Made by a program: the position numbers and the translations under genes. Under the pieces are notes generated by a model. That model was not told the DNA's origin. It worked only from the letters and a program-made list of their open reading frames with translations, and ran no database searches. Source: Hyphomicrobiaceae bacterium (GTDB lineage: Bacteria; Pseudomonadota; Alphaproteobacteria; Rhizobiales; Hyphomicrobiaceae). From it: a DNA stretch of 64,000 bases. Positions 8,007 through 12,462 of this stretch are shown in pieces. The DNA is taken from assembly GCA_021775735.1 (NCBI GenBank), contig JAJFHG010000059.1, positions 62,001 through 126,000 of the forward strand. The letters run 5' to 3'. Numbering within the stretch: the first letter of the stretch is position 1; the number at the start of each line of letters is the position of its first letter.

Positions 8007-8172
8007 GACACATAATCTCATTGCGCACGCTACCCGGCATTAGCCATGACGCTCATGTGGGTTTTGATCCTGGCATTTATTTGCCTACACTGCGGGCTAG
8101 CGTATAGATTGGTGTCGAGCAACGAGGTGTGGCTGCATTTGTTTTTGGACAGCCAGTTCTGGAGAGTGTCCC

Positions 8173-9411
8173 TTGAACTACGGGTTGAAAATCATTCGAT
8201 TGGCTGGTGTTTTTTTGCTGGCAAGTGTTGGCGCTATTGCCGTTTCAAAAGGCGTGGTTGGCCAATCCTGCGATGTAAGCGCGTGCCCGGCGATCAAAGT
8301 GTATGGTGACAGCGAAGCGGCAAAATGCCGAGCTTGGGCCACGCAAGCGGTTGGTCAGCAGCTTGAGAACGAGCAACGCTCGTGTGGTTACAGTGGGGAT
8401 GATTGGCACTTAGACATCAAATTACATTTTCGTGTTTGCGGTGGGCTCAGCGACTTGGATCGCGAACAGTTTTCTGAAGCGCGTGCCGAGATGTTGGCAA
8501 AGTGTCGAAGCTCCCCGAAACGCGCCTCCAACAACCCCGACGCAGAACCCAAGGCGGCCAAATCTGGCAAGGTTCCAGAGTGGGATGAGTACTGTCGCAA
8601 GTCTTATATGGTGGACGCGCTAAAAGTTGCGCGGCTGGCCAGGGATTGGAAGTGTACAAATATTGATCCTGAGCTGCACCTCAGCAAACAACGCCACTAT
8701 GATTTTTGTATCAAAAAAGCGCCAAAGGGGGCAGGCGACTATCCGCTGCATGATTTGATCGGTGATCGTCAGGAAAAAATCAAACAATGCCAGCAAGCAG
8801 CGGCCGTGAAGAAGCCAATCGATCCTAAAGTGACAAAGCGGCGGCGTGCGTGCAGCAAGTTTGCTGATATCTTTCTAAACGCAAAGCTCGAAAACGACAG
8901 ACTGAAATGTGCCTATTCTGGTGATGATTGGCACACCAATTGGAACAAACATTATCGTGACTGTACTGATTTGAAACTTACTGATCGCTTGCGTCTGATT
9001 CACGACCGTCAGGCTGAAATGAGTTCGTGCCGCTCGAAGGTTTTCCCAAAAGGCCAACTTGAAGCTGATGATCCTGACCTGAAGCCTGACACGAGTGGTG
9101 ACAATGACACCGGCGGTGCAACAGAAAAAGTGCGCAGTGCGTGTGATGCCTATGCCAAAGACGCGGTAGCCCATGAGGCTGCTAACAAGCAACTTAGCTG
9201 CGGTTTTTCTGGCCCGCTTTGGACATTGAAAGAAGCCACGCATTTGGACGCCTGCATGTCGAGCCGTGCCGATTATGCGTTTAAATCGAACATGTCACGG
9301 GATGCAAAATTGCGTCAGTGTACGGCCGTGCGCTTATGCAAAGACCCCTCGCGCGCGAAATCTCTATTCTGTCAGGACTTAACAGGATTGGTGCCGCCGA
9401 ACGCCAACTAA
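8173..9411 (+). CDS. Secreted protein with four cysteine repeats, unknown function
   Basis: 412 aa. The start is TTG at 8173 with GGAGAG six nt upstream; no ATG fits. A signal peptide follows (AGVFLLASVGAIAVS). The mature part holds four tandem units whose cysteines keep register: 52/71/89/111, 141/161/179/206, 227/246/264/286, 324/343/361/383. Three units have spacing 19, 18, 22 exactly; unit 2 has 20, 18, 27. The unit motif is C-x18-C-[GA]-[YF]-S-G-x2-W with H-[FY]-x2-C near the third cysteine; unit 2 has lost the SG-W part. Linkers are Pro/Asp/Lys-rich. I recognise no family. A periplasmic or secreted disulfide-bonded helical repeat protein is inferred. It follows rnpB but has its own leader. 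Confidence 0.8.
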   Translation: MNYGLKIIRLAGVFLLASVGAIAVSKGVVGQSCDVSACPAIKVYGDSEAAKCRAWATQAVGQQLENEQRSCGYSGDDWHLDIKLHFRVCGGLSDLDREQFSEARAEMLAKCRSSPKRASNNPDAEPKAAKSGKVPEWDEYCRKSYMVDALKVARLARDWKCTNIDPELHLSKQRHYDFCIKKAPKGAGDYPLHDLIGDRQEKIKQCQQAAAVKKPIDPKVTKRRRACSKFADIFLNAKLENDRLKCAYSGDDWHTNWNKHYRDCTDLKLTDRLRLIHDRQAEMSSCRSKVFPKGQLEADDPDLKPDTSGDNDTGGATEKVRSACDAYAKDAVAHEAANKQLSCGFSGPLWTLKEATHLDACMSSRADYAFKSNMSRDAKLRQCTAVRLCKDPSRAKSLFCQDLTGLVPPNAN

Positions 9412-10584: not shown

Positions 10585-12462
10585 ATGGAAAATTGTCGAA
10601 CTTGCAGCACACGTGGCGCAGATCAGTGCGCCGCCATCTGGAATTTTGACGCGCATGTTGTTGCATGTCTGCGTCGCGGTGCTGAAATCGCGCAACGCTC
10701 GGGTGTGTCGCAAATTTCAATTGCACATTTTATGACGGCGCTTTGCCATGATGAGGCGGCGGTGAACATGCTTAGCGGTTTGGGTGCTGACCCGCGCGTT
10801 CTGGAATTTGAGATGGTGCAACTCGTGGTGTCTTCGCGCCAAGGGCCTGGCCAGGACCGTGTGGTTCTGTCTCAATCGCTGAATGCATTATTGATAGCCG
10901 CAGAACAAACAGCGCAACATGCCCGTCGTTCTGTTGTGACGTTGGATGTGGTCATTGCGACGCTTATGCAAAATGCAGCGCAGGACGATGCGGCTGGTAT
11001 TTTTTATCGCCATGTTGCAAGTCGCAAGGGTCAACAGCAGGTGGCATCAGCGGGTGTCCGACGTGATGTGAGATCTAATCTTCGACAGGACGACGGTTTG
11101 AGCCCGCGCGCAGGTGCGCGAGCCAGGTATGCCCATGAGGGGCGTGACGTTGAATCGAGCCGTCAGTTCCGGCAATCTCATGAGCAGTCATATGCATCTA
11201 AGCAGACACAGCAGCGGGCATATGATGTTTTAGGGTCGCGCGGCGCCACTCACAATGCAGCCCCCTCTGCCGGCGCGATGTCGCGATCTGAACGACATCG
11301 TCAAACTGCATCCGCACACAGCGGGTCTATGCAGACGATGATATCTGATACGCGAACGCAATCAACGTCTGTAGCCTCCCAGTCGACGGTCGCTCGTGAG
11401 GGTGGAGTCAACGCGCGCGGTGAACGGAGCCAGCGGTCCAATCGCTCGGACTACGCTTCGACAGTGTCATTACGAACGCCGGGCGCCGCTCAGTTTAAAG
11501 ATCACGCCGGTCGGCGCGAGGCGACCGAGCATGAGCATTATGAAACCATTTTACGGATGCTGCGCGTTCAAGAGGCGCGTCTGGAGCGCCTCGAAACGGA
11601 CACTGAACGCACGCGTGGGCGCAAGTCGAGCCGATTGAGGGTCCGAAAAATTGCGCCTTTGTCGCTTTCCAGTCGGGGTGCCAAGACATCCAAGTCGCAG
11701 ACAAAGCGACAATCGCAATCTCATAGTGGATCGTCAGGAGCAACGACCCGGCAAGCAAGCCAAACAGCTGCGAATTCGTCCGATCATTCCGGGTCGCGTT
11801 CTTCATATGGATGGCGTGAGCGTCAGTCATCAGGGGCGAGTTCACAGTCGAGCAACACACATTCCAGCAGGTTATTTGAGAACGCGTCGGTTCGTGGATC
11901 CCGCGCAGGTCAAGACCGTCGTCGCGACAGTGATCGTGATGGATGGCGTACGGGGTCCTCTCGGGAGCCGGATCTTCGTACTGCAACACAACGCCAAACT
12001 GAGCGCACAGACGGTCAGAAAGAAAAACGTTTCTACCTCGCGCGAGAGGATGAACTCGTTGAAGCACCTTCAATTGGACCAAAGACTGCGGCGCGATTTA
12101 CGCCGCTCGGCATTCGCACCGTGCGCGATCTTTTGGAGCTTGACGCCGATACTGTTGCGGCTCAGTTGAAGGTGCGTCACATTTCAGCGGACGTGCTGCG
12201 CGATTGGCAGGACCAAGCACGTCTGGTGTGCACGGTGCCGTGGCTGCGAGGCACGCACGCACAATTGCTTGTCGGTGCAGATTATCGCAGTGCAGATGAA
12301 CTGGCGAAAGCAGACCTTGGTGATGTGTTCGCGGGTATTTTACGGTTTGCGTCGACAAATCAGGGCGAGCGCGTTTTGCGCACCAATCCACCGCCTGAAC
12401 GCGAAAAAGTCGCTACATGGCTTGGGTTTGCCAAGCAGTCTGACATGAGCCGCGTTGCGTGA
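10585..12462 (+). CDS. Protein with Clp-N-like N-terminus, Ser/Arg/Gln-rich linker and DUF4332-like C-terminus
   Basis: 625 aa. Residues about 20-145 are helical and look like a double Clp-N repeat (FDAHVVACLRRGAEIAQRSG, ISIAHFMTALCHDE, then LSQSLNALLIAAEQTAQ and VTLDVVIATLMQ). Residues about 150-480 are low-complexity, rich in Ser, Arg, Gln and His, with a short predicted coiled coil near 315-350 (ILRMLRVQEARLERLE). Residues about 480-625 carry a helix-hairpin-helix region typical of DUF4332 (APSIGPKTAARFTPLGIRTV). No AAA+ ATPase is present. An adaptor or DNA-binding role is possible but not shown. The start is the ATG at 10585; a cysteine-rich N-terminus (CRTCSTRGADQC) precedes the domain. 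Confidence 0.7.
   Translation: MENCRTCSTRGADQCAAIWNFDAHVVACLRRGAEIAQRSGVSQISIAHFMTALCHDEAAVNMLSGLGADPRVLEFEMVQLVVSSRQGPGQDRVVLSQSLNALLIAAEQTAQHARRSVVTLDVVIATLMQNAAQDDAAGIFYRHVASRKGQQQVASAGVRRDVRSNLRQDDGLSPRAGARARYAHEGRDVESSRQFRQSHEQSYASKQTQQRAYDVLGSRGATHNAAPSAGAMSRSERHRQTASAHSGSMQTMISDTRTQSTSVASQSTVAREGGVNARGERSQRSNRSDYASTVSLRTPGAAQFKDHAGRREATEHEHYETILRMLRVQEARLERLETDTERTRGRKSSRLRVRKIAPLSLSSRGAKTSKSQTKRQSQSHSGSSGATTRQASQTAANSSDHSGSRSSYGWRERQSSGASSQSSNTHSSRLFENASVRGSRAGQDRRRDSDRDGWRTGSSREPDLRTATQRQTERTDGQKEKRFYLAREDELVEAPSIGPKTAARFTPLGIRTVRDLLELDADTVAAQLKVRHISADVLRDWQDQARLVCTVPWLRGTHAQLLVGADYRSADELAKADLGDVFAGILRFASTNQGERVLRTNPPPEREKVATWLGFAKQSDMSRVA

Follow-up and report, generated by a model that had tools for sequence, protein, structure and literature searches.

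What does a protein do when its cysteines recur in strict register along most of its length and its sequence recalls no named family? The question is raised by an open reading frame at positions 8173-9411 of a 64,000-nucleotide stretch of DNA from a Hyphomicrobiaceae bacterium (contig JAJFHG010000059.1), the whole of which is referred to here as the window. The features discussed below are as follows.

8173..9411, + strand: open reading frame of 412 aa, secreted protein with four cysteine units, TTG start likely, orthologue in the same genus
8161..8166, + strand: GGAGAG, likely ribosome-binding site judging by its sequence, 6 bases 5' of the TTG at 8173
8173..8265, + strand: signal-peptide-like N-terminus by hydropathy, residues 1-31, hydrophobic core AGVFLLASVGAIAV
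8269..8286, + strand: C33-x4-C38 motif before unit 1, conserved in the orthologue
8323..8505, + strand: unit 1, residues 51-111 (C52, C71, C89, C111), by profile and AlphaFold2 (pLDDT 95.6)
8593..8790, + strand: unit 2, residues 141-206 (C141, C161, C179, C206), by AlphaFold2 (pLDDT 89.5) and by profile (E 5e-11, from an iterated profile that had itself taken unit 2 in)
8848..9030, + strand: unit 3, residues 226-286 (C227, C246, C264, C286), by profile
9139..9321, + strand: unit 4, residues 323-383 (C324, C343, C361, C383), by profile
9337..9408, + strand: C-terminal tail with C389 and C400, conserved in the orthologue

A conserved, probably exported protein with a non-random cysteine register

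That 8173-9411 is coding is supported by an orthologue from the same genus (genome G001, locus L003/L096), which shares 64% amino acid identity over 406 codons and keeps all 20 cysteines of the window protein; dN is 0.31 and dS, at 3.4, is saturated. The comparison indicates purifying selection on the gene. The start proposed in the initial annotation is supported by GGAGAG (8161-8166), which ends six bases short of the TTG, and TTG also reads as the start in the orthologue; because the two proteins have N-termini of unequal length, the exact start at 8173 is likely only. In both genomes an XRE-like regulator adjoins on the opposite strand, followed by a serine/arginine-rich ClpN-like gene (both named by eye). 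The 625-aa open reading frame at 10585-12462 of the window, syntenic in the same-genus relative (L096), has a Clp N-domain-like start, a long low-complexity middle rich in Ser, Arg and Gln and a conserved C-terminal part.

Secretion, as originally suggested, is supported by the hydrophobic, signal-like segment AGVFLLASVGAIAV ahead of unit 1 (mean hydropathy 2.4); a similar segment lies no more than 45 residues upstream of the unit in 44 of 46 single-unit relatives.

The cysteines of the window protein stand at residues 33, 38, 52, 71, 89, 111, 141, 161, 179, 206, 227, 246, 264, 286, 324, 343, 361, 383, 389 and 400. The sixteen first described do fall into four units, but the total is 20, as two more precede unit 1 and two follow unit 4. 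The unit spacings given initially (19/18/22, 20/18/27, 19/18/22 and 19/18/22) are exact, as is the observation that units 1, 3 and 4 have C-[GA]-[YF]-S-G-x2-W in common and that unit 2 lacks it. The 19/18/22 register is not due to chance: none of 200,000 random placements of 20 cysteines gave the three 19/18/22 units observed, and the maximum was two.

The unit defines a family in Hyphomicrobiales

An iterated profile seeded with three of the window units recovers all four repeats in the window protein. It found 68 units in a first set of relatives and, after wider sampling, 229 distinct units across the order Hyphomicrobiales, whose members live in soil and water. The four cysteines are kept in 212 of 212 full-length units, that is, those with all four cysteine columns filled, a figure somewhat biased since the profile favours cysteines; several segments below the profile threshold likewise retain all four. 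Homologues that had lost the cysteine spacing, which the initial annotation named as evidence against a register of this kind, are thus absent among the full-length units. The core can be written as C-x18-C-G-[FY]-x-G-x2-W-x6-H-x2-W-C-x14-R-x3-L-x2-C, with Trp27 conserved at 98%, Arg53 at 86%, His34 at 85% and Trp37 at 71% of their profile columns. Its G-[FY]-x-G-x2-W, H-x2-W-C and R-x3-L elements are largely present in window units 1, 3 and 4, and in all four window units the residue before the third cysteine is not Trp. Unit 2 is without the G-F-G-W part and has a five-residue insertion before the third helix; its His, Arg and all its cysteines are kept.

In a tree of units, whose 61 columns resolve the shallower forks, each window unit pairs with the G001 unit of the same number (70-79% identity, support 100), which indicates that the four-unit layout is older than the divergence of these two members of the genus. 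Units 1 and 3 form one group (98/86); units 2 and 4 branch off separately. We read the window protein as a four-unit form of the family that its genus has kept. The G001 orthologue has a fifth unit at its C-terminus, after the tail that holds the equivalents of C389 and C400.

At least one unit occurs in 61 of 99 genomes of the family of the window, mostly in single-unit form, and in 67 of 397 genomes of its order; the window's own genome is the sole match in a class sample of 289 genomes, and the three matches in a phylum sample of 398 genomes all belong to the window's order. These are minimum figures from a quick initial scan. The named relatives with units are Hyphomicrobiaceae, Filomicrobium, Hyphomicrobium and one Devosia bin, a range that puts the window itself in or near Hyphomicrobiaceae. 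The viral contigs and plasmids searched gave no units.

A predicted three-helix fold

For unit 1, AlphaFold2, given 26 aligned units from the window or related loci, predicts a compact three-helix domain with helices at fragment residues 4-24, 38-45 and 50-68 (mean pLDDT 95.6, pTM 0.83). With unit 2 as the first row of the alignment, the same three helices are predicted, the loop that leads into helix 3 being longer (mean pLDDT 89.5), which argues that unit 2 is a true unit that has diverged. The three-helix fold is thus a prediction for units 1 and 2, and in these two it agrees with the profile. A Foldseek search against solved structures gave nothing below E 1, and structure comparison gave Z values of up to 5.5, such as are expected between common helical arrangements. 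A similar overall arrangement of helices is seen in generic three-helix bundles of the PDB, for example 9cwp_K (Z 4.5) and 2p5t_C (Z 5.3), but their scores stay within that expected range and their Foldseek E values lie above 1.

Two disulfides within each unit, as first proposed, are plausible: the four invariant cysteines recur in the single-unit proteins, so that the unit must be self-contained, and export would bring these cysteines into an oxidising compartment. Paired losses of cysteines, which would point to the pairing, do not occur, as no full unit has lost any. In a coupling analysis of low depth (Neff about 152), the couplings between helices 1 and 3 lean weakly towards an antiparallel arrangement, with which C1-C4 and C2-C3 pairing might fit. 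Weak couplings of Arg53 with Tyr4, Gln11, Gly24 and His34, obtained at the same low depth, suggest a packing network.

The unit is absent from the searched libraries

The initial annotation could not name a family, and our searches with the whole protein and the units bear this out: every Pfam and NCBIfam match of the window protein or of a unit stayed below the cut-off of its model and is put down to chance, and there is no match among PDB sequences. A match of the whole repeat to a described domain, which the initial annotation likewise named as evidence against its reading, was not found in these libraries. An immunity-type relationship was considered because a short W-rich stretch of the unit gives sub-threshold matches to DUF3304 (3 of 26 units, best E 0.019) and Tli1a (2 of 26 units, best E 0.015). 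It was rejected by profile comparison: hhalign of the unit profile against DUF3304 gives a probability of 1.2 over 19 columns, that is, no profile-profile relationship, and the cysteine layout of these families is unlike that of the unit. The module itself is well supported; it is uncatalogued in the searched libraries, though a more sensitive profile-profile search could still bring out a distant clan. Small, disulfide-stabilised, tandem extracellular modules are a well-known kind of protein; what is new here is the family and a predicted fold that has no clear solved match.

Architectures of the relatives

The commonest relative is an exported-type protein of about 100 aa, with one unit after a hydrophobic, signal-like segment. 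In Hyphomicrobiaceae these proteins have the same unit, the same four cysteines and a signal-like N-terminus in common with the window protein, but they have one unit instead of four and are located beside recQ. One such gene is present in the genome of the window itself (contig 70, L095:3273-6059), beside recQ and then a probable DUF2939 gene, and in 18 of the 22 named loci (L073-L094) the single-unit gene and recQ are neighbours in divergent orientation. Some of the single-unit/recQ loci have his genes or groEL nearby.

Copy number ranges from one to eight, arrays having two to eight units. Among 46 distinct multi-unit open reading frames, at least 24 have a PAN signature by regular expression, and Pfam PAN_4 matches (up to E 2e-14) confirm many of these. 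Other domains fused to units in relatives are Tectonin (1e-58), FG-GAP_3 (2.5e-33), CAP (5e-18), DUF11 (2e-11) and fn3 (7e-8), and sub-threshold H_lectin (H-type lectin) and Jacalin matches also occur in proteins carrying units. Several relatives are very large, secreted-looking proteins that join the unit to FG-GAP, CAP with fn3, DUF11 or Tectonin (L105:5277-7931, L099:1481-4003, L100:1877-8941 and L132:541-3387). The C-terminal parts of L100:1877-8941 and L099:1481-4003 contain several tandem copies of a second cysteine repeat, roughly C-P-x-x-R-P-x-G-x-x-P-N-C-C-P-x-G-x-x-[FY]-x-x-G-x-C-x-R. An unusual fusion, L144:2-1519, has a single unit at its C-terminus, after some ten TPR repeats.

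PAN/Apple domains mediate protein-protein and protein-carbohydrate binding and fold as a beta-sheet with a single short helix (PMC3532174). Like the unit, they (PF14295 PAN_4, PF00024 PAN_1) are small, cysteine-rich, disulfide-stabilised and extracellular, and the two share polypeptides in related bacteria; the models of units 1 and 2, in contrast, are all-helical. The window protein has no Pfam PAN match at E up to 10, and no papers on PAN domains in Hyphomicrobium-like bacteria came up in a literature search.

A possible role in extracytoplasmic recognition

We propose, with a probability of roughly one half and by analogy with its relatives, that the window gene encodes an exported, disulfide-locked module protein that serves extracytoplasmic recognition or adhesion and is non-enzymatic. 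The gene product would be exported, and its mature part would consist of four three-helix modules of about 60 residues. Two internal disulfides probably lock each module, and charged linkers with prolines connect one module to the next. The fold would depend on the invariant cysteines, Trp, His and Arg, and the variable faces of the helices may bind a glycan or protein, either of the cell envelope or of a surface outside, with the tandem copies adding avidity. The formation and pairing of the disulfides, the final location, the ligand and the avidity are the parts of this scheme that we infer. The suggestion of a recognition role comes from the company that the units of relatives keep, i.e. 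PAN, Tectonin, fn3, CAP and FG-GAP. Since neither the window protein nor the common single-unit proteins have a PAN or lectin partner, binding is attributed by association, and for the window protein, which has units only, the odds of such a role are about even. Retention of the window protein in the periplasm would be equally compatible with the data, and the neighbours of the single-unit gene, recQ and the probable DUF2939 gene, are not adhesion or polysaccharide genes, which also speaks against recognition.

The main rival is a passive structural or periplasmic protein, the units of which would be disulfide-locked spacers or scaffold parts without a specific ligand. That the invariant residues appear to hold the fold, that the linkers are charged, that one relative fuses the unit to TPR repeats and that many forms stand alone at about 100 aa would all suit such a protein. 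One would not, however, expect a pure spacer to be retained on its own, in single copy, by such a large share of the family, or to be fused repeatedly to binding domains, and we regard this explanation as rather unlikely. Two further explanations are less likely still. The invariant cysteines, together with the Trp (98%), His (85%, in H-x2-W-C) and Arg (86%), could bind a metal or haem, but the unit has no CxxC or CxxCH motif, its cysteines lie some 18-22 residues apart and the Arg53 couplings, weak as they are at this depth, point to packing; a cofactor site is therefore improbable. Inhibition of envelope enzymes is frequent among small exported proteins, and the sub-threshold DUF3304 and Tli1a matches would be in line with an inhibitor, or an immunity protein, whose periplasmic target is an incoming toxin or lytic enzyme. 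The negligible profile-profile probability for DUF3304 and, by eye, the lack of an effector-like gene adjoining 8173-9411 in the window make such a protein similarly hard to credit.

Recognition or adhesion by an exported module protein is thus the reading that we prefer. A broader and more tentative proposal, which we put forward as a possibility only, is that the units form a new family of binding domains confined to Hyphomicrobiales, a helical counterpart of PAN/Apple, in which the diverged surfaces of tandem copies bind different ligands in attachment or envelope recognition. Pfam and NCBIfam miss the domain; with one profile for it, many proteins now called hypothetical could be annotated together, some of them large and modular. 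Should the module bind sugars or surface proteins, this bacterial order would have in it a system of attachment or recognition.
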